Below, piece by piece: positions 2,950 through 62,500 of a stretch of 64,000 nucleotides of DNA (position 1 is its first letter; each line of letters opens with the position of its first letter). Where the stretch lies: positions 1 to 64,000 of the IMG/VR virus record IMGVR_UViG_3300017989_000071. One strand, written 5' to 3'. The translations under genes were made by a program, and so were the position numbers. The notes beneath the pieces were generated by a model that saw only the letters and a list, made by a program, of their open reading frames with translations, was not told the DNA's origin and searched no databases. The stretch is from a virus.

Positions 2950-3696
2950 CTAGTTATCCCTAAAAACCCACTCGACGACCGCAACGGGATCGCCATGGAT
3001 CGCCCACTGAATTAAGGTGTCCGCCGACTCCTTCATCACAAGGCGCGGCGGGAAAATTTTATTGAAGTCGTTTATCATCCGGTCCAGATCGAGGTAGCCG
3101 GATGCAATCATCGCTTTGGCCTCGTTGCGTAGCATGGTGTAGTCCGCGATTTTCGCTTCGAGTAATTCGAGCTCCTGAGTACGGAGCCACGCCGTCGTCC
3201 CCTCCAGCGGAGCCTTTGCCCAGACCTTGTGGAAGCCCTTCAGAAACGTCACCGCCTGATCCAGCATCCGCAAAAGCCGCTTGGCATCCCGCATGATCTC
3301 GCGATCATGGGACTGCGCCCCCCGCTTATAAGCATTCGGGTGGAAAGTACGTATCTCGTCCTCCTCGATCCCGCTGAGCTGCCTCTTCGAGATCGCCCCG
3401 AACTCCTTGTCGATCATATTCTGCAACTCGAAGGTGTCGCCATTCCACGCCCCCTCCAAGTTATCGCGCCACTGTCGGATCGCTTCACCGATCCCTTGGT
3501 ACTGTTTGTTCCACTTCGCCGTCTGGTCATTGATCGAGAGCGCGTTCGCCGACGGCTTAACCCGGAAGCCCCCCGCGAGGATCGTACCGAGATAGTCCTC
3601 GTAGGCAATCAGCTCCTCGGTGAAGTCGTAGACGAAATCGGCCAGCTCATCGCCGACCTTGGTTGCCTGCTGGTAGAGTCCACGCACGCCCATCAT
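2950..3696 (-). CDS. Unknown helical protein in the virion cluster (up to 248 aa)
   Basis: Mostly alpha-helical protein rich in K, E, L and W, without recognisable domains, Cys pairs or membrane segments. It starts at one of two consecutive ATGs that overlap the stop of the upstream ADP-ribosyltransferase-like gene, so the two are probably co-translated. The helical, charged character would suit an internal head, scaffold or tail-chaperone protein, but nothing in the sequence decides this. Confidence 0.6.
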   Translation of the reverse strand: MMGVRGLYQQATKVGDELADFVYDFTEELIAYEDYLGTILAGGFRVKPSANALSINDQTAKWNKQYQGIGEAIRQWRDNLEGAWNGDTFELQNMIDKEFGAISKRQLSGIEEDEIRTFHPNAYKRGAQSHDREIMRDAKRLLRMLDQAVTFLKGFHKVWAKAPLEGTTAWLRTQELELLEAKIADYTMLRNEAKAMIASGYLDLDRMINDFNKIFPPRLVMKESADTLIQWAIHGDPVAVVEWVFRDN

Positions 3697-4874
3697 GCCG
3701 CTCCAAACAAACGCGCTTGTCGGGGGATACCCGGCTCGCGCTTCCGGCGTCGAATCTCGGTCGGATCGACCACCTGCTTGAACAACTGCTTCGCGTCGCT
3801 CTTCGCTTTCGACGGAAGCTTGCCGTAGATCACCTCGCCCCGTTGCGGAGAGCTGAATGCAATCACGGCCAGAATCTTGTTGCGGCCCCTGAAGTCGATC
3901 TTGTCCAGAACCCGGATCGAGAGATCGCCGTCCGGACTCTTCCCGAGAGACAGCCCCTTGAGCAGGCGGGTCATGCGGTCGATCCCCTCCCGCGAGTCCC
4001 GTTCCGCTTCAGCGGCGGACGGAATATCCAAACGGGTCTCCGGAATCAGCTCGTCCTTGATGAACTGCTCCAACTCCGAGTCGTCTTCGCTCACATCCCA
4101 ACCCATGTTCTCGACACGATCCCAATAGTGATAGGCATAAATCCCGCCGTAGAAATAGTCTGAAGCACGCTGCCGGGTGTGGCTAACCTGCCGCAAAACC
4201 TCGATCTCGAAGTGCGACTCGAAAAGCCGCCACAACAGATTATACAACTTCGGGTGCGCGTCCGACGGCGGCTCCACCTCGATCTCTCGGGCATACTGAT
4301 CGAGCCGGTCGAACAAATCCTGAGCAAACTCCGCACCCCCACCGGGGTCTTCGTTGTCGAGGTAGCTGGCGACCCAGTAACCGAGAGCCTCCCATTCGTT
4401 GAGCCGTCTCCCGTGATCGTCCTTCCACCTGTAGTAATCCGCCGTGGTTCGGATCGCATAGTCCGCCGCCTTGACCACCAGCGGGGACACCACGTCTTCG
4501 TCGAGGAAGGCGGATCGCGGCTGAATCTGCGCCACGATAATCACCTGCCGATCATCGCCGTACCGAACCTTCGACCGGGAACCGGCGTTACCGGCCTTCT
4601 CCATCTGGGGCGTGAAGTACACCCCTCCGAACGTGGTCAGGTTTTGGCGGGAAACCGTTCCCCGCACACCCTCATCTTCCTCATCGGTCCAGATCGGTTC
4701 GGCATCGGGATCGAGACCGCCCGCACGTTTGATGTGCTCCCACGCCGTCTCACTCGTACCGTGGTAGTAAATCCTCGGCTTGGCCGACTTCTGCCGCTTC
4801 TCGTACAGACGGGCCACTACCTGATCCGGGGCACAGCCGTTCAACACCTCTTGGATCAAGTCGTTTGCGTTCAT
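3693..4874 (-). CDS. ADP-ribosyltransferase-like protein, candidate internal virion effector (393 aa)
   Basis: Start ATG 4874 is chosen for its GAGGAA ribosome site; an upstream in-frame ATG (4979) has no such site. Residues 36-41 read YYHGTS and residues 83-88 GGVYFT, followed by a short beta-rich stretch ending LDED (about 124). This is the H...Y pattern of PARP/Tpt1/ART-fold enzymes, which transfer ADP-ribose from NAD. A GEVIY element at residues 346-350 could supply the third (Glu) triad position, but it lies 260 residues downstream across a helical insertion, so that assignment is tentative. The N-terminal 25 residues carry the ANDLIQEVLNG...V-V-A-R-L-Y-E signature shared with neighbouring genes (see findings). 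T4 Alt is a known packaged ART; the parallel is inference. It could also be an inactive ART fold. Confidence 0.55.
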   Translation of the reverse strand: MNANDLIQEVLNGCAPDQVVARLYEKRQKSAKPRIYYHGTSETAWEHIKRAGGLDPDAEPIWTDEEDEGVRGTVSRQNLTTFGGVYFTPQMEKAGNAGSRSKVRYGDDRQVIIVAQIQPRSAFLDEDVVSPLVVKAADYAIRTTADYYRWKDDHGRRLNEWEALGYWVASYLDNEDPGGGAEFAQDLFDRLDQYAREIEVEPPSDAHPKLYNLLWRLFESHFEIEVLRQVSHTRQRASDYFYGGIYAYHYWDRVENMGWDVSEDDSELEQFIKDELIPETRLDIPSAAEAERDSREGIDRMTRLLKGLSLGKSPDGDLSIRVLDKIDFRGRNKILAVIAFSSPQRGEVIYGKLPSKAKSDAKQLFKQVVDPTEIRRRKREPGIPRQARLFGAA

Positions 4875-4956
4875 CGTTCCTCGCAGTAGAAAATCGGTGC
4901 GTCCAACAGGAAGAGGAGGTTGTCGTCGTCTCTGCCGGACGCACCGATGGATCAAC

Positions 4957-5409
4957 TTACAGATTGGGGGCTTGGTCAATGACCATGTTCAGCCGGTCGC
5001 CGAAGGCGTCCAGCGCATCGGCCTCCGGATCGCCGATGGCCCGCAGATGCGCGGCCTGCTTCTCGATCCAGTTATTGATCCCAAGCAGCACCTCGACGTA
5101 ATCGTTCTTGGCGAGAAGCATGTCCACCGCCTTTGTGATCCGACTCGGCACCTTCGAGATCAGCGTCATCTGTCCCTCGGTCTTCGAGCGGCTTTCCTTT
5201 TTGAACTTGTCCACGTTGCGGGCAAACTTGGCGATGAGCTTCTTGCCTTCCGGCGAGTCGGGGTCTTTCCCCATGTTTTTGACCATCTTCTTCGCCGACG
5301 CGACGTTATCGGGTTCGGTCTCCTCGGACTCGTGCGCCCGCTCGATCACACTCGCCGGAGCGTCCCCCGCCAGCACTTTATCGATCATCTGATCCGCTGT
5401 TCGCAGCAT
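4957..5409 (-). CDS. Small helical protein with the shared N-terminal signature (150 aa)
   Basis: Start ATG 5409 is preceded by AAAGGAG at ideal spacing. Residues 4-24 (ADQMIDKVLAG, then A-P-x-x-V-I-E-R) match the N-terminal signature of the ART-like protein and of the 7472-7879 product. The rest is a lysine/glutamate-rich helical domain with no recognised family. It lies between two beta-rich structural genes and the ART-like gene. I infer an internal virion or scaffold-associated protein; the signature may be a targeting peptide. Confidence 0.65.
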   Translation of the reverse strand: MLRTADQMIDKVLAGDAPASVIERAHESEETEPDNVASAKKMVKNMGKDPDSPEGKKLIAKFARNVDKFKKESRSKTEGQMTLISKVPSRITKAVDMLLAKNDYVEVLLGINNWIEKQAAHLRAIGDPEADALDAFGDRLNMVIDQAPNL

Positions 5410-5433
5410 AGGATCACTCCTTTCGTTGAGAGG

Positions 5434-5463
5434 CCGGGGGGCCAAGGTGAGTCAGCCCCCCGG
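5434..5463 (-). terminator. GC hairpin between structural genes
   Basis: Perfect 9-bp inverted repeat CCGGGGGGC / GCCCCCCGG with a 12-nt loop, directly after the stop of the 5471 gene and before the ribosome site of the next. There is no U-tract on the transcript side, so this is either a weak or factor-assisted terminator or an mRNA-stabilising 3' hairpin. Confidence 0.45.
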
Positions 5464-6996: not shown

Positions 6997-7475
6997 GGAT
7001 GATCTCCTTGCCGTTGTACGGCCTGCTCGATTCTCCGGACGGATCGGCCAATCTCCTTCACGTCCTCTTGAACCTCGCCCACCGATTCCTTGATCGTTTC
7101 CATTTCCGTCCTGATCCGCGTCTGCTCGATGCGCAGGCCGTCTACGTGATTGACCAACTTATCCACGTTTTCCTTCTGCGTGTCGATCTTAACCTTCAAG
7201 GTCGTCGTCTCGGTTCCCTGAGCATGACGGTCCTCTTCGTTCTCCCGGCGAAGCCGCTCGGCCTTCGCGGCGGCACTCTCGACCTGCTCGTCGAGCTTAT
7301 CCACCGCCTTCTCCACCGACCCGACACGGCTGTTCAACCCCGCATCGCTGCGGGAGTACGCCATCGCACCACCAATAAGAGCGAGGAGAACCGTGAAAAT
7401 AAACGGGAGCCATCTCGCGAATCCTTCAGTCACTTTCCACTTCCCGTTACCGTTGGCATTTCCATTCGCCATCAC
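6993..7475 (-). CDS. Single-pass membrane, coiled-coil protein (160 aa), possible i-spanin
   Basis: Short polar N-terminus (N/G-rich), one hydrophobic segment at about residues 21-42, then about 110 residues of heptad-like coiled coil rich in E, K, V and R. This topology (N-in, periplasmic coiled coil, about 160 aa) is that of inner-membrane spanins and of some membrane-anchored virion proteins. It overlaps both neighbours by 4 bases, and ATG 7475 lies inside the TGA of the upstream gene. No lysin or holin is evident next to it, so the lysis role is only a possibility. Confidence 0.6.
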   Translation of the reverse strand: MMANGNANGNGKWKVTEGFARWLPFIFTVLLALIGGAMAYSRSDAGLNSRVGSVEKAVDKLDEQVESAAAKAERLRRENEEDRHAQGTETTTLKVKIDTQKENVDKLVNHVDGLRIEQTRIRTEMETIKESVGEVQEDVKEIGRSVRRIEQAVQRQGDHP

Positions 7476-7879
7476 GATTCTCCAGACAGGTCAGCGTATT
7501 CGACTTGGATTGCCGGGAGAACCGTCTGGCGGATCAGCTTGAAGATTTCCGCTGCGTCGCCTTCGACTACTCTCTTATAGCCCGTGGTGATACATTCCAC
7601 CCGGACCTTCGAGGGCAGGCCGTCCACCGACTCTACCCGGACCTTGTAATGCCGACGCTGGCCGTTCACGCACTCCGTAATGAAGGTTGAATGGCCGCGC
7701 TTCGGTTGAAACCGTTCGTTGCGGAACATCCGCACCCCGTGCGACTGCATGAACCCGATCAACAGCCCGGAGAAGCCCCCGTCCTCGTAGTCGCCAACGA
7801 GGCAGGCTTCAACCATGTCGGCGGGGTGCGCCCCGTCCATGACCTTCTGAATCAGGCTGTCAGCGGAGTAGTCGCTCAT
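7472..7879 (-). CDS. Small protein with the shared N-terminal signature (135 aa)
   Basis: Residues 5-26 (S-A-D-S-L-I-Q-K-V-M-D-G, then H-P-A-D-M-V-E-A) repeat the N-terminal signature found on the ART-like and 150-aa proteins. The remaining 110 residues look like a compact alpha/beta domain with no family I recognise. It is the first gene after the repeat-rich intergenic region 7880-8094, so it may open a transcription unit. Internal virion protein by inference from the shared tag. Confidence 0.65.
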   Translation of the reverse strand: MSDYSADSLIQKVMDGAHPADMVEACLVGDYEDGGFSGLLIGFMQSHGVRMFRNERFQPKRGHSTFITECVNGQRRHYKVRVESVDGLPSKVRVECITTGYKRVVEGDAAEIFKLIRQTVLPAIQVEYADLSGES

Positions 7880-8094: not shown

Positions 8095-11000
8095 TCAAAC
8101 TCCCGCTTTGCCCGCCAGTAAACCGGTCTTCGGCTTATCGAGCGATCCACCCGCTGCTGAAGCCGGAATGTCCTTCTCGCCCCGCTGGATGCGGTTCATC
8201 AGACCGCCGTGGCCGCCGCCCCCATGCTGCGGGGTCGGGCAGTTATTGGCGATCTTGAACTCCTTCAGGGTCAGGCCCAGCTTCCGGGTGGACTCCTTGG
8301 GTTCGGTGACCGTCTCGAAATCAAAGCCGTCAACAGCCGGTCCGCCCGAAGCGTCCACCACACTCCACTGCCCCCCGTTCGGGCCAATGATCCAGAGCTG
8401 ACCGTGCTCGAACGCCCAATCATATCCCTTGCCCTTCGATCCCGAGATGCCCTGCTGCTTCAAAAACGCTTTGACGGCATCGTATCCATACGAGGGGTCC
8501 GCGCTCTTCAGCTCCGCTTCTCCGAGCCGCTTCATGGCGGTCCCGGTGACCCTGACCAACTGATCGAGGGGCAGGGCCAGATACTTCTTCTGATCGGATG
8601 CGGAGAGGTTGCCGTAAACCGTCAGCACGTTCGCGGCCACCTTCTTGTCGAGGCCGTCGTGAACCACCTCCCCGGCGGCGATCTTCTTCAGCGTCCCCAC
8701 ATCGAAGCCTTGCGCTTCCTCTTCCACCGACTCCAGAGCCTTCATGTCAATCATCGAGAGGATGTCGTAAACCTCGCTGGGGTTTATCGTCCAAGCACCG
8801 TAGCGATTGGACGCCTCATCTCTGATCCAGTCTTCGACATCACCCCGCCGCCGCACACCTGTTTTCCCGAAGTACAATCTCGCGGCTGAGGCAATCTTCT
8901 CTTTTTGTCGCTGCGTTAGACGCTTCGGCTCCCGAGAGGTACGAAATTCCTCAACCGCCTCGTACTGATAGGTGCCGGGGTTGGCGAGCGCGGCGACGGC
9001 GATCTTCTGCTGTTCGGGGGTCAGGTCTTCCCAATTCATCGCCTTGGCATTGCTCGGGATCGTGTTGCTCTCGTCGCCAACCACGACGGGAACCTGAGAC
9101 GTACCCTTTTTGATCGTGGTCGGGATCGCCACGGCGTTGTACGCCCCGTGCCGGTTCTTCGTCTTCCCGGTAACGGTGATCTCACCACCCTTCCGATAGA
9201 CCGCCATGACCGAAGCGGGTTTGGATGCTTCCTCGACCCGCTCGCCCTTCATCTTGCGAATCCGTTTGACCAGATCGACCAGACCGGCCCACCGCTTCTT
9301 ACCCCACGGGGTACTGACCATCTTCTCGTGATCGTCGGCGGCGGTCGGCCAGAGCGCACCAGCCACGGTCTCGGGGTCGCCCCCACCACGCAGCATCGAC
9401 ATGATGCCTTCGCGACTCTTCTTCCCGTAGCTGGTATCGACCTTCATCTTCCCCGACATCAGATCGTCCACGAATGCGGCGACGCTGGCCTCGGTCACCT
9501 CGGGCAACTCATCCCAATCGACATCGACCTCTTCGTCGTCATCGTCTTCTTCGTCGTCCTGCCCCATCATCACCGACTGGATGTCCATCCCGGCGATCAT
9601 GTGGGGGTACATCTTAATCGTCCCATGGCCGACCGGCATTGGAGCCGCCGCGAATCCCGTGGACATCACCGTCTCGGAAATGCCGCTCGCGAAATTCGTC
9701 ACGAACTGCATACCATCCCACGAGATAATCATCGGGTCGATCCCAGCGGACGCATCGAAGTCCATCATGTGAACCAAGCCCTTGTCCGCATCGACCTTGA
9801 TCTGCTCCATCCATGTCCGGGGGTCTTTCAGCCCCGCACCTTCGAGAGCCTTGCGGACCACCTCGTCGGTCGTCGGCTGCAACTCATCGGCGAACTGATC
9901 GCCCTTGACCTGCTTGAAACTGATCGTCGGCCCCATCGTCAGCGGCCACTGCATCGTCTCATCGAGCAGGTAGGCCGCCGCCGGGTACGCACTACCCTCA
10001 CGGGCTTCCTCGATGGCGAGATCGATGCGATCCAACTGCATCACCTCGCCGAACATCTGCCGGAGCATCGGCTTGGCGTTGTTCAGCGCACGCTTGCGGC
10101 CCATCGAGAGGTTGGACCCGGCACGGTTGATGTAGAAATTCAAGCGGCTCATCGCCTGCTTCAGACTTTCGCTTTGGTTGTGAAGAACCGTGGCGACCTC
10201 CTTGGCCGACCGGGTAAACAGACCCTTGGGCGGGGTCCACTTCGTCTTCACCTGTGCCGACCACCTCGCGCCCTGTTCCTCGATCTCCTGAACACGGCCC
10301 AACCGCCACGTCACCCGCGCATCCCACTCTTCGATCTCGGTATGCTCCTTGACACCGGCCAACTTGCGGAGCTGCGCGTCGCTCATATCGGCCAGCGGCA
10401 TAATCGTTGTGCCACCCTTGGGAGTCAGAACCAGCACCGCCGGTTTCCCCCCGTGCTTGCCCTTGTACTCGCCCGGCATCTTGGACCAAATCTTGTCCAT
10501 CCACGCCTTACGCTTCGTGTCCCGCTCGGTCTCCTCACCTATCGCCTCACCGTAAGTGTCCTGCGCCCACTTACTCATAATCGTTTTGTCATGCAAAATC
10601 GCCCTCTGGAAGTCGGACGGTACATCCTTCCACTCAATCTCCGTATCGTTTTGGAGGTTGCGGAGCCGAATCGGTCCAAGATCATACGAGATGATCCGAC
10701 CCGCGTGTTCGAGTACAAACTCCACCGCATGAACCGTATCCATCGGGGCGAGCCGATGAAACTTTGGATTCAAAGTAACGGTGTAGACATCGCGGGTAGC
10801 ACCCTCTTCGTTCTTGAAAATCTTCCCAATCGTCTTCGGCATCGCCGCCTCGAAGATCGGCTCACCCTTCATCGCCCGCTCGATCATCGCATCGGCTTCG
10901 TCGAGGGAGGACGCGGGCGCATCCCCACTCTCAGACGGGTGGTACCCGTAATCGCCGGGATTGCGGGTCATGTCTTTAATCACAGCACGGGACGCGCCGA

Positions 11001-11952
11001 TCAGCTCGTTGGCCGGGTCTCGCCGCAACTCCTCTTCGGCATCGTCCATCGTGAAGTCCTGCGGAAACACGCCGCTCATCATCGAGTCCTTCCACACCCG
11101 GTCGAGGTTGAAGACCAGCTCCACGTTCGACCCCCGGATCGTGTAATCCGTCAGGTGTCGGCTGTTCTGGTAAAGGCGTTCGATCACCGTCTCGGGATCG
11201 TACCGCTGGTAAACCGACCCGATCAGATCGGACAGCAACTTCTTGATGGGGACCGAAACCTTGACCGTGGACTTCGCCTCGGTCACATCGTCCTCATCCT
11301 CCACGACCTCGGTCACACCCTTGAACGAGGTGTAGGCACTGGCGTAGTTATTCTTCGCCGTACCCGCGCCGGACGGGCTGCTGAAGGTAAGGATCGCGGA
11401 CTTCCCCTTCACCGACCCCTTCTTGAAGCCGGTCGCATCCTTGCCGTCGGTTTTGATGTCGTCGAGAAATTCCTTGGCGTCGCCCGGACTCCCGAAATTG
11501 AAGGTCACCGTCGTTGCCTCGGTCAAATCCGATTCTCCATCCTCGACGGACTCGAAGGTCCATCCGTGTTTGTTCTCGGCCCACTGGACCATATCTCCCC
11601 ACGAGGTGAGGAGGAACTTGTTCTCGGTCGGGGAAAACACCACGGTCGTATCGTAGGTGTCCCCGAAATTGACGTACATTGCGACAACCCCCTGCCCCGC
11701 ATTCGCGCCCCAATAGCGTCCATCGACACCGCCGGGGTAGTCGTCAAGCGAAACGTCCGGGCTGGTGATCGCCTCGACGCCGTAACCGCCGATGAGCTCG
11801 TTGATCTCATCCAGCACCTTCTCGATCTGCCGACCGCCGCCACGCTTCTGCATCAGCTGAGCGACCTTCTTCGCCGTCGGGTCGTCGATCTTGAAGAGCT
11901 TCATCAACTCGGTCGGCTTGACTCGGGCTTCTTCGATTTTCGGTTTCGACAT
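8095..11952 (-). CDS. Giant 1285-aa multidomain protein, possible processed internal virion polyprotein
   Basis: Residues about 45-128 contain a small domain (G-G-Y-G-V-E-A-I ... Y-V-N-F-G-D-T-Y) that I have seen as a stand-alone phage protein of unknown function. Residues 242-265 and 352-364 carry copies of the signature otherwise found at the ends of neighbouring proteins (S-D-L-I-G-S-V..V-I-E-R-L-Y; A-D-A-M-I-E-R-A-M-K-G). Acidic linkers occur at 214-226 and 798-815. Sites of the form [LIV]-x-E/A stand at 145/146, 225/226, 368/369, 649/650, 821/822, 908/909 and 1145/1146, several in or beside linkers. This is the pattern expected for T4-type prohead protease processing. The C-terminus is a Gly/Lys-rich tail. 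No enzymatic motif was recognised. The cleavage idea is inference. Confidence 0.6.
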   Translation of the reverse strand: MSKPKIEEARVKPTELMKLFKIDDPTAKKVAQLMQKRGGGRQIEKVLDEINELIGGYGVEAITSPDVSLDDYPGGVDGRYWGANAGQGVVAMYVNFGDTYDTTVVFSPTENKFLLTSWGDMVQWAENKHGWTFESVEDGESDLTEATTVTFNFGSPGDAKEFLDDIKTDGKDATGFKKGSVKGKSAILTFSSPSGAGTAKNNYASAYTSFKGVTEVVEDEDDVTEAKSTVKVSVPIKKLLSDLIGSVYQRYDPETVIERLYQNSRHLTDYTIRGSNVELVFNLDRVWKDSMMSGVFPQDFTMDDAEEELRRDPANELIGASRAVIKDMTRNPGDYGYHPSESGDAPASSLDEADAMIERAMKGEPIFEAAMPKTIGKIFKNEEGATRDVYTVTLNPKFHRLAPMDTVHAVEFVLEHAGRIISYDLGPIRLRNLQNDTEIEWKDVPSDFQRAILHDKTIMSKWAQDTYGEAIGEETERDTKRKAWMDKIWSKMPGEYKGKHGGKPAVLVLTPKGGTTIMPLADMSDAQLRKLAGVKEHTEIEEWDARVTWRLGRVQEIEEQGARWSAQVKTKWTPPKGLFTRSAKEVATVLHNQSESLKQAMSRLNFYINRAGSNLSMGRKRALNNAKPMLRQMFGEVMQLDRIDLAIEEAREGSAYPAAAYLLDETMQWPLTMGPTISFKQVKGDQFADELQPTTDEVVRKALEGAGLKDPRTWMEQIKVDADKGLVHMMDFDASAGIDPMIISWDGMQFVTNFASGISETVMSTGFAAAPMPVGHGTIKMYPHMIAGMDIQSVMMGQDDEEDDDDEEVDVDWDELPEVTEASVAAFVDDLMSGKMKVDTSYGKKSREGIMSMLRGGGDPETVAGALWPTAADDHEKMVSTPWGKKRWAGLVDLVKRIRKMKGERVEEASKPASVMAVYRKGGEITVTGKTKNRHGAYNAVAIPTTIKKGTSQVPVVVGDESNTIPSNAKAMNWEDLTPEQQKIAVAALANPGTYQYEAVEEFRTSREPKRLTQRQKEKIASAARLYFGKTGVRRRGDVEDWIRDEASNRYGAWTINPSEVYDILSMIDMKALESVEEEAQGFDVGTLKKIAAGEVVHDGLDKKVAANVLTVYGNLSASDQKKYLALPLDQLVRVTGTAMKRLGEAELKSADPSYGYDAVKAFLKQQGISGSKGKGYDWAFEHGQLWIIGPNGGQWSVVDASGGPAVDGFDFETVTEPKESTRKLGLTLKEFKIANNCPTPQHGGGGHGGLMNRIQRGEKDIPASAAGGSLDKPKTGLLAGKAGV

Positions 11953-12710: not shown

Positions 12711-13628
12711 CTATATCGTGTCGTCGTACTTGCTCTTCTTCGTCTTCCCCGCCTCGGTCACCTCCTGCTCGATCAATTCGTCGGCTCGGCTCATCTCACT
12801 CTCCGGTAGGGGGTTGTTCTGGATCGCGGCCATAAACCGATTCGCCGCTTCCGGGGGCAACTTCTTCCCCTTGGGCGAAACGAAGTGCATGAAATTCTCG
12901 GCGAAATCTTCCTCGTGGTCGCTCTTGGCATAGGACGAGACAAACTGATTCGACTTCTTCCACTCTTCCCTATACCACACCCGCGCTTCACCGGAGAGGT
13001 GGCGACCCCACACATAGTGCGCGAGCTCGTGAAACAGCGAATCCTTCTCGGCTTCGCGAATCCGAATCACCCCGCCCCTGTGCTCCAAGAAGTTGTCCGC
13101 GTAGATCGCAAATTGTCCGAACGTCCTATCGAAAGCCGCAACCGCCGACGGGGGCGCACCGAGATGTATGGGGGGCTTCCTCCACACATGAACGCGCCAC
13201 AACTGATCGGAGAGCCATCCCAACCCCGCACGCTTCAAGTAATTCCGAAGCTGCGAGATGTGGTAGTTAATGACATCGGTTTCTTGCGGATTCTCGGAAT
13301 CCTTATTCCCCCAATGCACCTCATTCCGCTCGCTCACCTCGGGTAGATCGTTCGTTATGAGATGGGGGTGATCGTCGATCCAAATATCCACCTCGTATCC
13401 CGCATCGGCAGCGGCCTTGTCATTGCGCCGCTGGCCGCAGAAGACGATGGGGCACAGGCCGTCGATCTCATCCTTGACGGGTTGGGCCTCGAAGCCCGGA
13501 TCGCCGGGATCGCCGCGCCGGGTTACCACCACCGCATCGTGGCCGTGTGACCGAACCATCCCCACAAACCACTTGAAGAGCTCGGGGGCTTCGGTCCACG
13601 TCCCATCGTAGTCGATTCCGAAAAGCAT
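12711..13628 (-). CDS. Fusion of HAD-like domain and HExxH metallopeptidase-like domain (305 aa)
   Basis: Residues 3-11 (F-G-I-D-Y-D-G-T-W) and 80-86 (V-D-I-W-I-D-D) are the DxD and acidic motifs of a HAD phosphatase. This part is a paralogue of the 40897-41529 product. From residue about 140 a second domain begins, with H-E-L-A-H at 200-204 and D-H-E-E-D-F-A-E at 238-245, the zinc ligands expected of a gluzincin-type peptidase. The last 27 residues carry M-S-R-A-D-E-L-I-E-Q with a V-T-E/A site at 292/293, the same signature seen at the N-termini of neighbours. Its presence in the virion cluster suggests a packaged hydrolase; targets are unknown. Confidence 0.65.
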   Translation of the reverse strand: MLFGIDYDGTWTEAPELFKWFVGMVRSHGHDAVVVTRRGDPGDPGFEAQPVKDEIDGLCPIVFCGQRRNDKAAADAGYEVDIWIDDHPHLITNDLPEVSERNEVHWGNKDSENPQETDVINYHISQLRNYLKRAGLGWLSDQLWRVHVWRKPPIHLGAPPSAVAAFDRTFGQFAIYADNFLEHRGGVIRIREAEKDSLFHELAHYVWGRHLSGEARVWYREEWKKSNQFVSSYAKSDHEEDFAENFMHFVSPKGKKLPPEAANRFMAAIQNNPLPESEMSRADELIEQEVTEAGKTKKSKYDDTI

Positions 13629-13631
13629 GAA

Positions 13632-14051
13632 TCAGTAAACGGGCTTGAAGTCGCTCTCGCCCATCAACTTCTCGACCGACTGATCGAGCTGTTCGATAAG
13701 GGCCATAATCTTCGGCTTCAGCTCGCGGGCCATCGCCTGCATCTGCATCTCGACCTCGGCCTTCTGCTCCGGGGTCAGCGGCTCGTTGCTCGAATAGGGG
13801 AGCTGCTTTTCGTAGCAGCGCATCGGACCGCCGCAGGACATCGGGCCGTATCCGGACGCTCCCTCCATCTTGCAACGGATCGACCACTTCCGCCCCGCGC
13901 TGTACTGGCACAGGACCATCTTGAGCTCGATGTCCACGGGAGCCGCATCGGACCTCACGGACACGCCGGAGCGCAGATCGCTCGTGGCTTCATTCAGGGG
14001 ATTCCGCGTCCCCTTCAACTCCCGTTCGATCAACTTGTCCGCTCTGTTCAT
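13632..14051 (-). CDS. Protein with the shared N-terminal signature and an LNE/A site (139 aa)
   Basis: ATG 14051 is preferred because it puts the signature N-R-A-D-K-L-I-E-R-E-L-K-G at residues 2-14 and follows GGAG at 6 bases; ATG 14063 is an alternative. L-N-E/A at residues 19-22 resembles a T4-type prohead protease site that would remove the signature peptide. The remainder has four Cys (about 46-79) and a C-terminal helix. No known family. Likely an internal virion protein by inference. Confidence 0.65.
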   Translation of the reverse strand: MNRADKLIERELKGTRNPLNEATSDLRSGVSVRSDAAPVDIELKMVLCQYSAGRKWSIRCKMEGASGYGPMSCGGPMRCYEKQLPYSSNEPLTPEQKAEVEMQMQAMARELKPKIMALIEQLDQSVEKLMGESDFKPVY

Positions 14052-14157
14052 GCTCGGCTCCATTCTGCTCCCCGTCGCAATGACAAGTCGCATAATACAT
14101 TGTCGTCAGGACCATGAAGATCAGGCACCCGATTGTCGTCTTCGTCTGCCACTTCAT
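13990..14157 (-). CDS. Small membrane-anchored protein overlapping the next gene (55 aa)
   Basis: ATG 14157 has AAAGGAAG six bases upstream. The product begins MKWQTKTT, has one hydrophobic segment at about residues 9-24 (with M, L, I, T, Y) ending in C-H-C, then an acidic polar tail ending S-P-E. The last 62 bases overlap the start of the 139-aa gene out of frame. The topology suits a membrane or lipoprotein-like lysis component (o-spanin style), but the lipobox is poor. Small size and overlap keep confidence modest. Confidence 0.45.
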   Translation of the reverse strand: MKWQTKTTIGCLIFMVLTTMYYATCHCDGEQNGAEHEQSGQVDRTGVEGDAESPE

Positions 14158-25102: not shown

Positions 25103-25573
25103 CTATCGAAGCCCGTCGAGATTCAGCTGCATGTTCCCGATCAGATAAGCCATCCGCGTATCGCGCAAGCTCCGAGCATACGCGATCACCGCCTTCCGGG
25201 TCTCCGACATCACCCGTGACCGCAGCAAAAGCTCGACGTTACACGGATCGATCCACGGCGTCGCGAAGACGTGCTCCCCCTTCGCCAGATAGCTCTCCTC
25301 CGAGGGGCATCCGACATTGCGGTCCCCCCACCACCGCAGCGTCACGATCCCATCGTCGTCGTACTCCACCCGAGCTGTGATCCGGCACAGCTCCCAAAAC
25401 TCGGCATCCCGCAGATCGTCGCCTCGCATCTTCGCCGCCGTGTCCCACGTCCGGGGTCTCATATTCCCACCGTTGATGCTGTCCATCGTCGTGTCGAGGA
25501 AAACCCGCATCCGCCCCCACCACTCGCTCACCGGCTCAGCGTAAACCCGCCGAATCATCCGCTCACCCTTCAT
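25103..25573 (-). CDS. Unknown accessory protein (156 aa)
   Basis: Starts at an ATG overlapping the TGA of the gp21-like gene. Contains W-W-G and D-D-D-G segments and a C-terminal helical part. No known family; the context offers no specific role. Confidence 0.55.
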   Translation of the reverse strand: MKGERMIRRVYAEPVSEWWGRMRVFLDTTMDSINGGNMRPRTWDTAAKMRGDDLRDAEFWELCRITARVEYDDDGIVTLRWWGDRNVGCPSEESYLAKGEHVFATPWIDPCNVELLLRSRVMSETRKAVIAYARSLRDTRMAYLIGNMQLNLDGLR

Positions 25574-25971
25574 CCCTCTTCATCCTCCTTGACAGGAACC
25601 GCCTCAATCGAGAACGATTCGAGCTCCAGATCGGTCACCACCCCGCCCTCGACCGTACCGCTCCCAATGGTATAGCCCCGCGCCCCGAGACGACCCTCCT
25701 GTATCGCGGCGAAGAGCTCCTTCAATTCCCTGCTCTTCGGCGTGTCGGGCAGCAACTCCAGATCGACCTCGATCACCCCCTCCTTGAAATCGGCGCGGGT
25801 AACGAGATGCGTCACGTCCTGAAGATTCCCCAGCATCTCACGATTCCTGATCCGCTCCTGAAACTTCGGGTCGTTGACGGCCTTCTCCAGCACCTCGGGG
25901 GGATACACCCTCCCATTGCGCCTTCCCATCTCATCCGCCGGAATCGTCACCGCGATCTTGCGCTTATCCAC
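25570..25971 (-). CDS. T4 gp21-like prohead protease fold, apparently lacking catalytic Ser (133 aa)
   Basis: A GTG start at 25971 is chosen because AGGAGCGGGAAG precedes it and it overlaps the TAA of the previous gene; ATG 25989 is an alternative. N-G-R-V-Y-P-P-E-V-L-E-K-A-V-N-D (about residues 18-33) matches the N-x-R-x-Y-P-x(2)-I-L-E-K-A-V-x-D block of T4 gp21. Later L-G-A-R-G-Y-T (about 97-103) lies where gp21 has its S-S-R-G-L-G serine element, and the expected G-x-x-x-H-P segment is not conserved. So the fold looks related but catalysis is doubtful. It sits far from capsid genes, so it may be a repurposed or inhibitory paralogue. Confidence 0.5.
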   Translation of the reverse strand: MDKRKIAVTIPADEMGRRNGRVYPPEVLEKAVNDPKFQERIRNREMLGNLQDVTHLVTRADFKEGVIEVDLELLPDTPKSRELKELFAAIQEGRLGARGYTIGSGTVEGGVVTDLELESFSIEAVPVKEDEEG

Positions 25972-26179
25972 CTTCCCGCTCCTGCGCATGAAAATGCTTG
26001 TACTCCTCCCAATCCCGAAAGAGCTGGTTGAACGCCCCCTCGCTGATCTCGTGCCGTTGCCCGTAGATGTGGACATGGAACGCCCGCTCCTCCATCTCCA
26101 AAAACTGAACGTCCTCGATGGCGATATAGAAGCACCCCGGCGTGCGCGGCTTATCGACTCGCAATACACCTATGGCCAT
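25964..26179 (-). CDS. Small unknown protein (71 aa)
   Basis: ATG 26179 overlaps the upstream TGA and has AGGAGGT. Compact alpha/beta protein with H-V-H-I-Y-G and a C-terminal helix rich in aromatic and His residues. Translationally coupled to the gp21-like gene that follows. Confidence 0.6.
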   Translation of the reverse strand: MAIGVLRVDKPRTPGCFYIAIEDVQFLEMEERAFHVHIYGQRHEISEGAFNQLFRDWEEYKHFHAQEREGG

Positions 26180-53332: not shown

Positions 53333-53362
53333 ATCATAATACCAAACACATACGCCAGTCAA
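53333..53362 (-). promoter_or_regulatory. Sigma70 promoter before the RusA-like gene
   Basis: TTGACT (53362-53357), 18-bp spacer, TATGAT (53338-53333) on the minus strand; TATTAT at 53341-53336 gives a 15-bp spacer alternative. The TGA in the -35 is the stop of the SbcDC-like gene. Confidence 0.7.
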
Positions 53363-56300
53363 GCCGCAAGGGCGGAAACGCCGTTCGACTTCACCACCGA
53401 AACACGATCAGGCACAAGACCACGCAGGAACGAGTGCTGCGTTACCAAAAAAACCGACAACCCTTCGTCGGCCTTCATCCGCAACACATCGGCCAATGCT
53501 TCCATCCCGGTCCGGTCGAGCTTGTCGTCGATCTCGTCGCAGACCAGAATGTTCGTTGTCAACCCGGTCGATACCCGCGCCAGCGCATTGAGAGCCAACT
53601 GGACAACCAGATCGGCCCGGCGTCGCTCCCCGGACGAACAGGCCAGATACGACTTCCCCGAAGTCAGCTCGACGGTGATCTTGTCGGTCGTCGTCTTGTC
53701 CTTCAGCTCGGTCTGCGAGTGGATCACCACCGCATCCTTCCCGATCAGCACATCCGAGTATTCGGCCAGCCGGACATTCAGGAACTCCACCGCTCCGGAA
53801 AGGAGACGCGCCCGGATACCCGTCGGAGAGAACAAACCGGCCACGATCTGCGACCGCTTCTCCTCCACCTCGGCGACCCGCTTCCGGTCCCCGGCCTTGC
53901 AACGCCGCTTATGGGCCTCTCGAACCTCCTCCTTCAGATGCTCCATCCGACTCTCAGCCGACCGGATGGACTCCCGAATCGACTGCTCCTCCTCGCCAAT
54001 CTCCGCAATCCGAGACGCACAGTCCTTCACCAGCCGCCCCAACTGATCCAAGGCAGCCTCGGCCCCGGAAACCTCCTCCATCGCCTCAGCGAGCCGATCT
54101 GACCCCTCCTCGGCGGTGTTTTCGGCATCCCTGACGGACTTATCGGCTTGCGAGATCAGTTTTTGAGCCGCTTTGACCTTCTCATCGAGGTTTTCGCGGG
54201 GTTCCACCACCTCGACCTTGATCCGGTCCTTGATGGTCTGGATCGCCTGCTCCTCCTCCTTCCACGCCGCGTTGTTCCTCGCGATCTCCTGCTCGGTGGA
54301 CTCCACGTCCCGCTTGATCCGCTCAACTTCGGCGTCGAGCTGCTCCGTGGTCTGCGGCTTCTCCGCATCCTCGGTCAACCCGGCTTCCCGATGCAGATCG
54401 TGGGCCTCGTTGAGGGGCTGAAAGCACGTCGGGCACTTCCCACCCTCGATCATCTTCCGGGCCTTCTCCTGCCGCTCGGCCAGAGCCTTGTTCGCTGTCT
54501 CGATCCGAACAACCTCCTCGCGCAGCCCATGAATCCTCAGTCGCAGATCGCCAGCCCGCTCTTGTAGATCGTTCTCTGTAACATCCAACTCCCGCTGCAC
54601 CTGCTTATGCGTCTCGATCTCCGCTTTGAGCTCTTCCTCCCGCTTGGACAGCGGACCGTATTCGAGCCTGTACTCCTCTTCCCTCTTTCGGAGATCGCTC
54701 GCCAGACCCCGCAGCCGCTCGACCTCCTTGCGATGGACCTCGGCGTGTTCCTCGCGGAGACGATTCACCTCCCCGCGTTTGGCTTCAAGCTCCTTACGGG
54801 CTTCCTCCACCCGGCCCTCGAACTCGGACCGATTGTGTTCGATGGTCTTCTTCCGTTCGGCAAGAGCTTCGACCTCCCGCCGCTTGGAATCCAAATCGCC
54901 GATCTCCTCTTCGGCGGCCTTCCACTTCTTCGTTACGCGATCCACCTCCTCATCGCGCACCTCGACCTCGGCGGAAGCAGACCCCATCTCGACCGCCGTC
55001 TTCCGCTTTCGGTCCCGCGCCAGATCGGACATTCGGTCCAGCGCGTCTAGCCCGAGGATGCTCTCGATCAGCTTCTTCCGGTCTCCATCATTCAGGTCGA
55101 TGAACCGATGCGACAGACCTTGGGTCATAATCGAAAGATGCTGTAGGGCATCGTGTGTAACCCCGAGAATCCGCAGCAGCTCGATCTGCGCATCGGCAGC
55201 CAACCGGGGAGTGATCGAATCGTCGCCGTTCTTCTCGATAGTCAAGCCGGTCTTGTAAGTCTTGTGCTTCCGGCTCCGGCGCACTAGGTAGTGATCGTCG
55301 TCGATATGAAACTCGACTTCGACCATGCAGCCCGACGCCCTCTTCGACCTCCCGTTCCGCCACCCGACATCTGCCTTAGACAACCCACGCAGCGTCCGGT
55401 CATAGAGGCACCAGAACAACGCCTCGATCAATGTGCTTTTCCCCGACCCGTTCGACATCGCACCGGGATCGTCTTGGTTCACGCCCTCGATCAGGACCAA
55501 CCCTCGGTCCCGCAAATGGAAGTAGGCTCCATCCTTGAACGACATGAAGCCCTCCATCCGCACCGAGTCGAAGCGGATATTCGAGTGCTGAACATCGCCG
55601 GTCGTGTCCTCACCGGCCTTGATAATCCCCTTGACGATCTCGACCGTTTCCTCGTCACGCCACTTCGCGTCCGTGAGGTACTGAATCGCTTCTTCCTCGA
55701 TGTTCACATCGAATCCGTACTGATCCCCCTCCTCGTCCCCCTTCTTCCGTTTGTCCTGCGAGACGCCGGGGGCGAGAATCGCCCGCTTGAACTTGGCAAG
55801 CGTTCCCTCCAGCGTTTCGATGGGATAGTTGTTATAATAATAAACCTTCACGAAGGTCCGCTTCTTGTCCTCAATCATGTCGAGGGCGTAACGCTCCTCC
55901 TCGGTCCGCACATGGACCGTCTCGTACTTCGAGTGGTGGGGACCGGGAATCCGGCGCACCTTTACCGGACCGCGCTCCTCCCACTCCACGATGTCGATCC
56001 CGCGCTCGATACCGGCGTTCTCCGAATCGGTGAAGGTGCGCGTGGTGATCGAACCGACTACCCGCGCATAGCACTCCGGCGTCGCCACCACCTGACAAGG
56101 CCGGTGGTAGTGACCGGCGAAGATGTGCTTACCGTCGGGAAACGAGTGTGGGTCGATGCCGTTGACCTCGGGAATCCCCAGATGCCGCAGCGCACCGTTG
56201 AGCGGGAGGTGCATCATCACGAGATCGTACTCGTCCGCTCGGGCGTTCGCCGCCATCACCGCCCCCTCGATGTCGTTCGTGTGGGGCATGTAGAGAATCC

Positions 56301-56679
56301 GATCCCGTATCGTCTGCGTCGGAATCACCCGATCCCGCATAAACGACAGGGTATGAATCCCCGCGTTCTCGTTGTAGACCTCGTGATTGCCGAGCAGCAG
56401 ACTGAAGTCACCGGCAGCTCCGCCCGCAACCAGCGCAACGTGCTCGCGGAAGATCATCTCCGCGACGTGCTGCGATTGCGGGTCCACGTGATCGTGGGTG
56501 TGGTAGTAGTCCCCCAACCCGATAACTAGATCGGGCTGCTCCTCGCGAATCACCTCGTGGACCCAACGGAAGATTGCCATGATCTCGTGAAGATGCGTCG
56601 TCAGCCCATCCGTTGTCGGAGACGAAAAAGCGTTATGGGGATAAATGTGGGGGTCAGCCCACAGTAATAGTTTCTTCAT
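53359..56679 (-). CDS. Single-chain Mre11/SbcD-Rad50/SbcC fusion nuclease-ATPase (1106 aa)
   Basis: Residues 1-~360 are the Mre11/SbcD (T4 gp47) part: A-D-P-H (8-11), G-L-G-D-Y-Y-H (54-60), L-L-G-N-H-E (95-100), M-M-H-L-P-L (155-160) and G-H-Y-H-R (189-193). Residues ~365-1106 are the Rad50/SbcC (gp46) part: Walker A N-G-S-G-K-S-T (410-416), long coiled coil with zinc hook C-P-T-C (749-752), signature S-S-G-E-R-R (1015-1020), Walker B I-L-V-C-D-E (1044-1049) and an H-loop V-T-Q-H (1079-1082). The complex processes DNA ends for recombination-dependent replication. In T4 and E. coli these are two genes; here they are one chain. Stop reused by a promoter. Confidence 0.9.
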   Translation of the reverse strand: MKKLLLWADPHIYPHNAFSSPTTDGLTTHLHEIMAIFRWVHEVIREEQPDLVIGLGDYYHTHDHVDPQSQHVAEMIFREHVALVAGGAAGDFSLLLGNHEVYNENAGIHTLSFMRDRVIPTQTIRDRILYMPHTNDIEGAVMAANARADEYDLVMMHLPLNGALRHLGIPEVNGIDPHSFPDGKHIFAGHYHRPCQVVATPECYARVVGSITTRTFTDSENAGIERGIDIVEWEERGPVKVRRIPGPHHSKYETVHVRTEEERYALDMIEDKKRTFVKVYYYNNYPIETLEGTLAKFKRAILAPGVSQDKRKKGDEEGDQYGFDVNIEEEAIQYLTDAKWRDEETVEIVKGIIKAGEDTTGDVQHSNIRFDSVRMEGFMSFKDGAYFHLRDRGLVLIEGVNQDDPGAMSNGSGKSTLIEALFWCLYDRTLRGLSKADVGWRNGRSKRASGCMVEVEFHIDDDHYLVRRSRKHKTYKTGLTIEKNGDDSITPRLAADAQIELLRILGVTHDALQHLSIMTQGLSHRFIDLNDGDRKKLIESILGLDALDRMSDLARDRKRKTAVEMGSASAEVEVRDEEVDRVTKKWKAAEEEIGDLDSKRREVEALAERKKTIEHNRSEFEGRVEEARKELEAKRGEVNRLREEHAEVHRKEVERLRGLASDLRKREEEYRLEYGPLSKREEELKAEIETHKQVQRELDVTENDLQERAGDLRLRIHGLREEVVRIETANKALAERQEKARKMIEGGKCPTCFQPLNEAHDLHREAGLTEDAEKPQTTEQLDAEVERIKRDVESTEQEIARNNAAWKEEEQAIQTIKDRIKVEVVEPRENLDEKVKAAQKLISQADKSVRDAENTAEEGSDRLAEAMEEVSGAEAALDQLGRLVKDCASRIAEIGEEEQSIRESIRSAESRMEHLKEEVREAHKRRCKAGDRKRVAEVEEKRSQIVAGLFSPTGIRARLLSGAVEFLNVRLAEYSDVLIGKDAVVIHSQTELKDKTTTDKITVELTSGKSYLACSSGERRRADLVVQLALNALARVSTGLTTNILVCDEIDDKLDRTGMEALADVLRMKADEGLSVFLVTQHSFLRGLVPDRVSVVKSNGVSALAA

Positions 56680-59101: not shown

Positions 59102-59572
59102 CTATACGCTTTGTGACATCCCCTTCATTTCGGCGCGGGCGTTGTTCGACAACTGCTCCGCTGAACGCAATCGGGAACGGATCGCCCACGACAGCTGACT
59201 GATAAACTCGTGCGCCACGTGGAACCGATCCGCCCGCTCATCCAACCCGGCAAACTCGGGATCGTTCCGTGCCGCTGTATCCACCCGCCATTGAGGATTC
59301 TTGTCGTGACGGCTACCGGCATTCGTAAAGACGATCTGATGATAGGCCAAGTCCGCCGCCCGACGAGCTTTGCGCGACATCCACAGATACTTCCCGAGGA
59401 GGTATCCCATCATCGCTTCCATCTCTCCCTGCTTTCGGAACGCCTCATCGAGGTTGTCTCCGATATAGATGTCGTCGATAAGCTGTAAGACAATTTCCCG
59501 GTCCTCTTCGAGCAGGGCGGGAATCGCCTCTTCCTCCATTAGTTTAGATTTCAACAAATCCCCGTAATTCAT
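59102..59572 (-). CDS. Helical protein between polymerase and SSB genes (156 aa)
   Basis: ATG 59572 overlaps the polymerase TGA (ATGA). Fully helical, charged (M-N-Y-G-D-L-L-K-S-K-L-M-E-E-E; S-A-I-R-S-R-L-R-S-A-E-Q-L). Size and position recall a recombination-mediator (UvsY-like) role, but there is no sequence proof. Confidence 0.55.
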   Translation of the reverse strand: MNYGDLLKSKLMEEEAIPALLEEDREIVLQLIDDIYIGDNLDEAFRKQGEMEAMMGYLLGKYLWMSRKARRAADLAYHQIVFTNAGSRHDKNPQWRVDTAARNDPEFAGLDERADRFHVAHEFISQLSWAIRSRLRSAEQLSNNARAEMKGMSQSV

Positions 59573-62500
59573 GCGGCCTCCGCTGTTTTCGGGTGCAGCC
59601 GAGGAGTGAAGCGGTACTCGTCGATGAACTCTACATTCTCCTCGAACTCGGGAATCTCGCACTCGACGATCAACTTCTCCTCGGTATGCAGATATGTAAA
59701 CTCGACATCGCAGGGCCAGCCCCGCATCACATCGAGCACCTTCTTCATATTTGACGACACGTCGTGCTCGCACTTCAGGCGCAAGCCACGGCGACCGTCG
59801 GACAGCAGCTCCGCATCAACCATCTCGCCCCACGAGGTTCCAACCTCGAAGTCGATCTCCAGCGGAACCGTCAAGTGCTCCTTGAACCGCTCGACCAAAT
59901 CGTCAACCATGCAGCGGGACGCCAGCTCGATGTAGTCAACCACCTCGGAGCCGGGGCAGTCCGCCTCGAACGAATCGTGAATGAAGCCCCAAATCACTGT
60001 CCACATATCCTCTCCCCGAACCGCATCGAAGAGCATCTGCAACGCCAGTGTCGCCCAATCGCTCGATCCCCCCTGAATTGGGGTATTCATTGCCTGACGC
60101 TCAGCCGACGACCGTTTGTATTGGTTCTTACTATAAATGTCCGGAAGCAGCCGACGCGACCCGAGGCTGGTCCACACCGCACCGTGCTCTTTCAGAATCG
60201 CGGACTGCTTGTCCCACAACTCCCTCAGCCCCGGAAACTCCCGGAAGATACCCTCTTGGAAAAGCTTGGCCTCTTCAAGAGTAATCCCGTACATGTCCGC
60301 GATCCCCGGTGGACCCGCCCCGTACATCGTCCCGAAATTGGCTGCCTTCGCACCGCGCCGCTCATCGCCCGTTACCGCCTCCAGAGCCTTCTTCAGAATC
60401 CGGGCCGCCGACGTGCGGTGAATGTCCAGACCGATCAGGAAGATTTCCATCATGTTCGCGTCGCCGGACAACCGGCAGCCGTCACGCAACTCCATCTGGC
60501 CGTAATCGACAACGACGAGCAGTCCGCCCTTGAAGCGGGTCTTGTAAACACTCTTCGCACCGCCGCGAAACGGGATCGTCTGGATCGGGGGGTCGTTCGC
60601 CGACCACCGCCCTGTACCTGTCGTCCGCACACCCCAATTCGCGTGAGCGCATCCGTCGTATCCGGTCAGGTCGGGAAGTGGCTTTAGGTAGCTCGAATAA
60701 TTCTTGCCGACCTTCTTCCACAGCAACAACTTCTCCAGCATCTCGGCGCAACGCTCGCAGAACTCCTTCACCTCGGGATCGTCGGACTTTTTCCCCCGGT
60801 CCCGAATCCAAACCTCCATCCGGGAAAGCACATCCTTCTCGGTGCTACCCTGCAACACCCGACCGTCGGGCTGGCGGAAATTTCTCCGGGTCAACGAATT
60901 TTTCGGGTCGGCGGTCTTGTCGGTAAAATGATTTCCCATATAAGGAAGACCGAGAACGCCGTGGATCAGGAAATTCAAACTGACCCACGACCCCAATCCG
61001 AGCTTGTAGTTGTACTGCTCCTCCACCGCTGCGTCGTAACCCTCATCCCGAAACCAATCCCGAATCTCGGTCAACTCCTCTACCGCCGCGTCCGCGACTT
61101 CCTTGTTTCGTTCAAGATCGACATACACCCCGGAAACGCGCATCCACAGCGCAAAGGTGTGGCTGTTCATCGTCAGCATCTCGAAAGGTTCGAGCAGATT
61201 CTCCTCCTCCAGCAGCTCCCGCTGAATCGGAACCAGACGTGCCGTAGAGATCGCATCGAAGCAGGCATACTCGACGAAGATTTCATACTCTACATCCTCG
61301 TAAGGATCAGCCCCCTTCGGCAGCTCCGCTTGCGCCTCGTGCATCCGCTCCTTCGGATGCAGCATACCCGCCCATCGCGTCGCCATGTAATCCAAATCGT
61401 GAGGCTCGGTGTCGTTCGTCAGGGACCAACCGGCCAGCATCGTATCGTGGAACAAACCGGGAGCTAGACCGCGCCCCCTCCACATCGGTATCCACACCTT
61501 CGTCCGGGCAACGAACGCCGTCTGATCGTACTGGAAATTCTGACCGGCGACAGGCACCGTCCGGAATAAACGGGTGAGGTGGTGGTCGATAGCTTGTCGG
61601 GATAGAGCATCGTTGGCGAACGGAGATAACTTATGCTGATACGGAATATAGAGCGGAACCGAGTCGGTATGCGCCTCGACTCCCCCGCCCGCCTTACCCC
61701 CGCAAACTGTCACGCACAGCATCTTCCACGTTGGGTGAAAGATTTCCAGACCTCCATCCTCGCCCTTACTCGTTGCCTCGATGTCCACCGCAACGAAGTC
61801 GATCTCGCCCTTGGCGTACCGCTCCAGATACGTGTCCACTGCCGCCTCGACCTTACCGAGCGTGTCTCCGTGGTTGATCCCCAGATCGGTCTTCTCCCCC
61901 GACACGCGGCGTCGAACCATCGCCAAGTCTTCGAGGATCATCTGCTCGTACTGCACATTCCCCCGGAGAACCGCCGAGGGATGAATCGTTGGAATGACCG
62001 TGTAGGAATGGGTGATCCCGTCGAGCTCGAACGTCAGGTCCATCTTCCGACCGTGAACCGTTGTAATCTTCTGCTTCGATCCGGTCAGCCCGTTCAACGA
62101 AACCCCGCCAACCGCAACGATCACTTCGGGATCGTGCTTAACGATCTCCCGCAACACGTAAGGCCGACACGCGCTGATCTCGCTCGGCGACGGCTTCGGG
62201 TTACTCCGCACACCCAGCGGGCAGCAGCGGACCACGTTCGAGAAGCGGACCCACTCCAGCGGTATCTCTGAATCCGCCAGATATTCCCGCAACTTCTTCC
62301 CCGCCGGGCCGACGAACGGCTCCCCTTCGCGGTCCTCTACCTGACCCGGAGCCTCCCCAATCAGCATGACCTTCGGCTTCTCCGCGCCCGATCCGTACAT
62401 CTTGATCGTCGTCGCCCCCTCGGACAACGAACACCGCTCGCACGGTCCGGGCGTCAGGTCCGGTATTTCGTCGCCGGAGCAGAAGGAGCACAAATAGGAC

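Follow-up and report, generated by a model that had tools for sequence, protein, structure and literature searches.

The DNA described here, hereafter the window, comprises positions 1 to 64,000 of the virus record IMGVR_UViG_3300017989_000071 and belongs to a larger virus contig, G000, of 117,644 bases. On its minus strand, at positions 8095–11952, lies an open reading frame (ORF) with an ATG start that encodes a protein of 1285 amino acids (aa), termed P0001; the coordinates and the length agree with an earlier note prepared from the letters alone. That note had proposed a virion polyprotein with repeated protease-like sites and internal tags, and the proposal was followed up computationally. 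That the minus strand is the coding strand was confirmed by a match of P0001 residues 591–635 to Pfam PF11373 (DUF3175), with 44.8 bits against a gathering score of 27, and the opposing plus-strand ORF of 954 aa was taken as a shadow frame. Two other contigs of this virus hold an identical copy of P0001. DUF3175 was the only domain recognized by Pfam, the matches to PHROGs being weak (best E 0.0068). When 24 records were searched with P0001, 17 matched, every one around DUF3175, and the matches in named phages and at 103 other loci were likewise confined to, or centred on, this region.

The seven [LIV]-x-E/A positions listed in the earlier note all proved to be the glutamate of a [LIV]xE|A site, and two more were present, giving nine in all: IEE8, LTE145, VTE225, LDE352, IFE368, IEE649, VTE821, VEE908 and LGE1145. 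Shuffling of the P0001 sequence gave an expectation of 1.6, and none of 2000 shuffles reached nine. The looser [LIV]xE motif occurred 27 times against 17.7 expected, while the control motifs were close to chance ([LIV]xDA, 1 against 1.6; [LIV]xKA, 1 against 1.6; AEx[LIV], 0 against 1.5). Cutting at the strict sites would yield pieces of 80 to 281 aa, leaving aside an 8-aa leader and a 16-aa tag. The fraction of acidic residues upstream of the sites averaged 0.25, compared with 0.15 overall, and rose to 0.67 upstream of position 821; the hydrophobicity of the site flanks showed no difference between the P0001 sites and random places.

It could be that P0001 is simply a large protein unconnected with the phage head, in which such sites have arisen by chance and through helix bias. 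The [LIV]xEA motif is indeed above shuffled expectation across the virus (73 against 45.1 in 133 other proteins), and the link of P0001 to the head is a predicted one. Since other proteins of the virus also exceed their shuffles, a fairer expectation for P0001 is ~ 2.6, for which the Poisson tail for nine sites is ~ 0.0015 (computed by hand). P0001 nevertheless has the largest [LIV]xEA excess among the 134 virus proteins, with control motifs near chance, and it both carries a short tag and sits in a block of tagged proteins, described below, that reaches the head protease and capsid genes. An origin by chance and helix bias is thus very improbable.

The DUF3175 region served as a test case. 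Bacteria and other phages also encode the domain by itself, as a stand-alone protein. Among viral contigs 19 loci were found, this virus accounting for two of them. Most of the others encode small proteins in which a short leader ends with [LIVM]xE 2–4 residues ahead of the domain, for example LVNE|KLW, ILAE|KQW and LITE|KKW. One phage DUF3175 protein starts MKNFKTYEQFISEG, which we take to be similar to the T4 targeting sequence. Of the 17 phage proteins, P0001 being one of them, 16 were scored as having a [LIVM]xE motif at most 15 residues before the DUF3175 tryptophan, as were 6 of the 79 bacterial loci (from 80) with a usable tryptophan, a few of the bacterial picks being apparently wrong. 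In the phage set the script picked W543 rather than W564 for P0001 and the first tryptophan rather than that of the domain for L112; L116 and L117 are near-duplicates, the match in L120 is probably the starting Met-Ser-Glu, and L111, truncated by the end of its contig, was not counted. A recount by eye that omitted P0001, the duplicate and the L120 match retained the site in 13 of 15 phage proteins, with none in L114. In P0001 itself, IEE559 lies four residues ahead of W564 and IEE649|A follows the module, and the embedded module therefore has a candidate cut where its stand-alone relatives would shed their leader. No literature linking DUF3175 to phage was found in the mainly open-access sources searched.

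The position of the sites relative to predicted structure was assessed using AlphaFold2 models built without an alignment. Three blocks of P0001 were better predicted (residues 231–320, 830–899 and 1010–1069). Five of their six edges lay no more than 10 residues from a [LIV]xE (p 0.019 under random placement), and three of the six did so for the strict sites (p 0.033). Only 1 of the 27 [LIV]xE sites fell inside a block (p 0.010), as did none of the nine strict sites (p 0.16). This placement is in favour of cutting between modules, as judged from low-confidence models and some 220 residues. The fold searches were middling and no fold is claimed, the best Z being 6.1 for a low-confidence helical stretch, ~ 5 for residues 226–330 and at best 5.6 for residues ~ 1010–1080.

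These data also bear on the idea that P0001 is a core or scaffold-like assembly protein, shredded to peptides at maturation, in the way reported for T4 core proteins, with no functional modules released. The total of 27 [LIV]xE sites would suit such a protein, and processed fragments of T4 core proteins stay in the head (PMC9026906). However, the strict-site pieces are large, the DUF3175 module occurs by itself elsewhere, and the confident blocks are almost free of sites; shredding to peptides is accordingly an improbable outcome.

The virus encodes a candidate for the cutting enzyme. A contig of the same virus, L011, is identical to G000 over 12,156 bases and extends upstream of the capsid gene, and there a Peptidase_S77 domain (PF03420; 54.6 bits, cut-off 27) and a scaffold-like part share a single ORF (L011 8238–9932). 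The virus contig encodes a tail sheath and a T4-like capsid protein, the latter matching the PHROG major head protein with E 3.6e-52 and showing 35% identity to Listeria phage LIS04. A candidate cut in the capsid protein, ISE|G, aligns with LHE|G and MLE|G of two relatives. T4 gp21 is reported to cut with L/I-x-E specificity (PMC9026906). Given the S77 gene and the candidate capsid cut, the virus therefore has both an enzyme and a plausible gp21-like specificity. Peptidase_S77 was found on 10 of the 18 records searched, one of them this virus's own contig; a number of the records without it are only short fragments.

Two observations concern the protease gene. The G000 assembly ends (117585–117644) in a 60-base repeat that belongs to the scaffold portion of the protease-scaffold gene. 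Within the window, a minus-strand ORF at 25570–26169 gave a sub-threshold Peptidase_S77 score (18 bits, cut-off 27) and matched the protease gene of this virus with E 3e-7; it is possibly a second, degenerate protease gene, to judge by these matches.

A long tag resembling DQLIAQVLEGADPEKVVVDLV was found in 12 proteins of the virus, at the start, at the end or within the chain. Eleven of their genes fall in a block between ~ 8 kb of the window and the head protease; the twelfth lies just past the capsid gene. The 12 proteins are the seeds of the tag hidden Markov model (HMM) and score 43.6–57.2 bits by construction, with decoys at 7.2 bits or less. The carriers differ from one another and include ADP-ribosyltransferase-like (ART-like) proteins, a 2H phosphoesterase and small proteins. 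The ART-like carriers show the pattern HGTS, Y, QPRSAxxDED and in profile comparison weakly matched structures of RNA 2'-phosphotransferase (E 0.003), and the tagged 2H phosphoesterase is recognized at 42.7 bits (cut-off 27), its match to Acb1 being sub-threshold.

A second, short tag, [AV]Dx[LM]IE, matched five times in 39,550 aa of this virus against 0.16 expected. Its holders are P0001 (at residue 353), a 677-aa protein on L011 and three neighbours, all in the cargo block. The motif was composed after its examples had been viewed and was then applied out of sample, giving seven matches against 0.07 expected in the related virus G006; among ten other groups searched there was one match in G008 and none in the remaining nine. 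The internal tag that the earlier note had placed at 352–364 is supported by these matches. Each of the 18 listed tags has a [LIVM]xE motif, either internally or as its last residues, and in P0001 and the 677-aa protein sites flank the tag on both sides. The note's other internal tag, at 242–265, was rejected because of its poor score and its position in a compact predicted alpha/beta domain (pLDDT, predicted local distance difference test, blocks of 52–79): the best place, 252–262, had an E of 0.36 and reached 3.5 bits, less than the 7.2 bits of one shuffled decoy. With a position matrix, P0001 windows 239, 352, 786 and 845 came among the top dozen places that were neither seeds nor clear tags. 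Only 352 was kept; 239 and 845 both lie in predicted folds and were rejected. The expectation that each released domain would carry a tag did not hold, the piece around 353–368 being the only one with a convincing tag.

When L015 (at 2675–2703) is compared with L016, another contig of the same virus, the two are found to differ by a stretch of 2,260 bases that holds two tagged genes. The junctions have 29 identical bases in common, inside tag-coding sequence, as if cargo had been gained or lost through recombination there.

The best-supported reading is that P0001 is a multi-module precursor packaged in the head, where the prohead protease would cut it into pieces of module size, and we consider this probable. 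Its basis is the site excess, the S77 gene, sites at the DUF3175 borders as in stand-alone relatives, fragments the size of modules and a tag bracketed by two sites. The P0001 chain would join the prohead core, perhaps via its internal tag, and as the head matures the viral S77 protease, which is of the T4 gp21 type, would cut after [LIV]xE between modules; the tag would be cut out. The module-sized pieces, the DUF3175 protein included, would remain in the head and then enter the host along with the DNA. We infer the cleavage, packaging and ejection, as well as any function of the pieces. The virion polyprotein of the earlier note is in this way partly supported, as a precursor for a gp21-type protease. 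The place of P0001 is more probably in the head, as cargo or core material, than on the outside of the virion.

Several points weigh on the other side. The reading draws on sequence and predicted structure, and the models of P0001 are of low confidence overall (mean pLDDT 35.7 and 42.2). The only relatives over the whole length, among viral contigs, are the identical copies. The genome-wide [LIV]xEA bias softens the statistic, and the acidic linkers in which the earlier note had placed several sites are present for some of them (145, 225, 368 and 821), while not every site lies in a polar or acidic linker. Neither the tag HMM nor the position matrix found the long N-terminal tag of the neighbours at the P0001 N terminus. 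Because P0001 lacks that tag and has only the short internal one at 353–368, it is not classed as a T4-type targeting-sequence (CTS) protein; it may work like one, and its first 8 aa, with IEE|A at their end, are no more than a candidate targeting leader.

P0001 might instead be a packaged multidomain effector of the polyvalent-protein type, injected whole or trimmed near its ends only, with most internal sites unused. Polyvalent proteins are multidomain, are predicted to be co-injected with DNA and in some cases are packaged uncut (PMC5512222). Proteins of the ART-like, 2H and zincin-like types, all known among polyvalent proteins, are encoded nearby, and the cutting of P0001 is itself something we infer. 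Against this stand the [LIV]xE|A excess, the sites that border DUF3175 or lie close to the edges of predicted domains, and a tag that two sites would excise; moreover, Pfam found no typical polyvalent domain in P0001. An effector that stays largely uncut is therefore unlikely, though less so than either of the alternatives weighed above.

Multi-module ORFs occur in G006 too. The head and tail genes of this virus resemble those of G006 (capsid 58% identity), where a single ORF of 454 aa carries a HAD-like region together with an Acb1/2H domain (Acb1 at 30.4 bits, cut-off 27), the tag and DUF3175. Four more G006 ORFs (317, 320, 530 and 781 aa) have a basic junction ending [IPV]xE. The junction motif, E[RS]...RR...[IPV]xE, matched seven times in G006 (L230 and L231), once in the protease gene, against 0.31 expected; it was composed after viewing its matches, and this virus, the only other place where it was tested, gave no match. 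In the 781-aa chain a Kyano_Gp96 module (35.9 bits, cut-off 27) is flanked by two candidate sites. One module is common to the 677-aa protein, a 221-aa protein encoded on L233 and, with less similarity, P0001 at residues 909–1002, with [LIV]xE near both ends in each; for P0001 this likeness is a weak match and only a lead. Another module is preceded by a tag in this virus, by LTE|A in G006 and by LSE|S in G011.

A broader proposal, which we put forward tentatively and at somewhat less than even odds, is that in this T4-like phage lineage the prohead protease acts as a general polyprotein processor. Portable cassettes of tag plus cut site would fuse unrelated effector modules into chains or split them into single genes, recombination in tag-coding DNA would add or remove cargo, and P0001 would be one of several such chains here and in G006.

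A 446-aa DUF3175 protein in group G016 (L239:14023–15363) continues after the domain in a series of HHVKK-type repeats with ELAE, ELSE and LTE between them, and its gene lies ~ 1.3 kb from an S77 gene. From its sequence it is perhaps another multi-module chain.

In T4, single proteins pass through the steps of targeting sequence, gp21 cleavage and, for Alt, ejection, and Alt is also cut near its C terminus (PMC9026906). The T4 internal head proteins (IPI–III and Alt) are alike in having a tag, an L/I-x-E cut site and an S77 protease, and this virus has ART-like cargo, as T4 Alt is. Unlike P0001, which would release several modules and has an internal tag, T4 cargo has a single protein per chain and terminal propeptides; the long tag of this virus is like that of T4 in plan only, not in sequence.

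P0001 is closest in concept to the polyvalent proteins, which combine many disparate domains per chain, are thought to be injected and were compared with polyproteins by their authors (Iyer et al. 2017, PMC5512222). There, however, the proposed processing is via embedded, mostly zincin-like, peptidases, and for P0001 it would fall to a separate head protease. Head proteins of SPN3US and phiKZ are also cut several times each by a prohead protease at a short motif ending in Glu (A-X-E), but these cuts remove propeptides, and multi-module release is not among the findings in the excerpted parts of PMC10052503. In some siphophages (PAJU2 type) a head chain is proposed to be cut into two products, yet this chain fuses protease to shell protein and has no cargo modules (PMC8306868). 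The earlier note had known of no described phage polyprotein of this build, and in the mainly open-access literature, as far as its accessible text extends, the protease-capsid fusion was found and no chain built like P0001. Loading by tag and head protease is known for single proteins, and long multi-module chains are what would be new. Phage-injected proteins are hard to recognize because they evolve fast and mostly lack named relatives. If tags and [LIV]xE sites mark injected proteins, then packaging, cut positions and host-acting modules would become predictable from sequence. If the proposal is true, the polyprotein strategy familiar in RNA viruses would be run in a DNA phage through its head-maturation protease.

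Table 1. P0001, its pieces between candidate sites and its tagged neighbours in the window
Feature	Coordinates	Strand	Basis
P0001, multi-module protein, 1285 aa, proposed head-cargo precursor	8095..11952	-	ORF, translation, identical copies, 9 [LIV]xE|A against 1.6
Residues 1-8, possible short leader MSKPKIEE|A	11929..11952	-	[LIV]xE|A at 8
Residues 9-145, between sites 8 and 145	11518..11928	-	Sites; low-confidence model
Residues 146-225, 80 aa, LTE145 to VTE225	11278..11517	-	Sites; low-confidence model
Residues 226-352, with predicted alpha/beta domain 231-320 and doubtful tag 242-265	10897..11277	-	pLDDT 52-79; fold neighbours only ~ Z 5
Residues 353-368, short tag ADAMIERAMKGEPIFE lying between sites LDE352|A and IFE368|A	10849..10896	-	[AV]Dx[LM]IE motif
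Residues 369-559, piece(s) ahead of DUF3175, candidate non-Ala sites within	10276..10848	-	Sites
Residues 560-649, DUF3175 module, IEE559|Q to IEE649|A	10006..10275	-	PF11373; relatives
Residues 650-821, very acidic end before VTE821|A	9490..10005	-	Sites; acidic fraction 0.67
Residues 822-908, helical, 87 aa, VTE821|A to VEE908|A	9229..9489	-	pLDDT 51-64 over ~ 830-899
Residues 909-1002, possible module common to L011 677-aa and L233 221-aa proteins	8947..9228	-	blastp E 0.02-0.04; hhalign E 5e-4, probability 31%
Residues 1003-1078, helical, VEE1002|F to VEE1078|E	8719..8946	-	pLDDT 59-76 over ~ 1010-1069
Residues 1079-1145, ending LGE1145|A	8518..8718	-	Sites; pLDDT 41-50
Residues 1146-1285, C-terminal piece	8098..8517	-	Sites
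Neighbour with HAD-like region, zincin-like match below cut-off, short tag near C terminus, end VTE|A	12711..13628	-	Motif, tag list
Neighbour with N-terminal short tag, end LNE|A	13632..14093	-	Motif, tag list
Neighbour with N-terminal long tag	7472..7879	-	HMM seed, 49.3 bits
Neighbour with N-terminal long tag	4957..5445	-	HMM seed, 45.2 bits
ART-like neighbour with long tag; likely true start the ATG at residue 36	3693..4979	-	HMM seed, 51.8 bits; paralogues; ART-like pattern
Neighbour with C-terminal tag	2950..3696	-	Position matrix 18.3, not a seed

The DNA on either side of P0001 has features of its own. A small ORF for a basic protein apparently lies between an SNase-like gene and P0001 (11953–12350), and the gap following P0001 (7880–8094) contains several palindromic copies resembling GTATCGGAGCTCCG. 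Elsewhere in the window, SbcD-like and SbcC-like parts are joined in one ORF (53359–56679), and uracil-DNA glycosylase and DNA polymerase A domains are joined in another (59569–62661).

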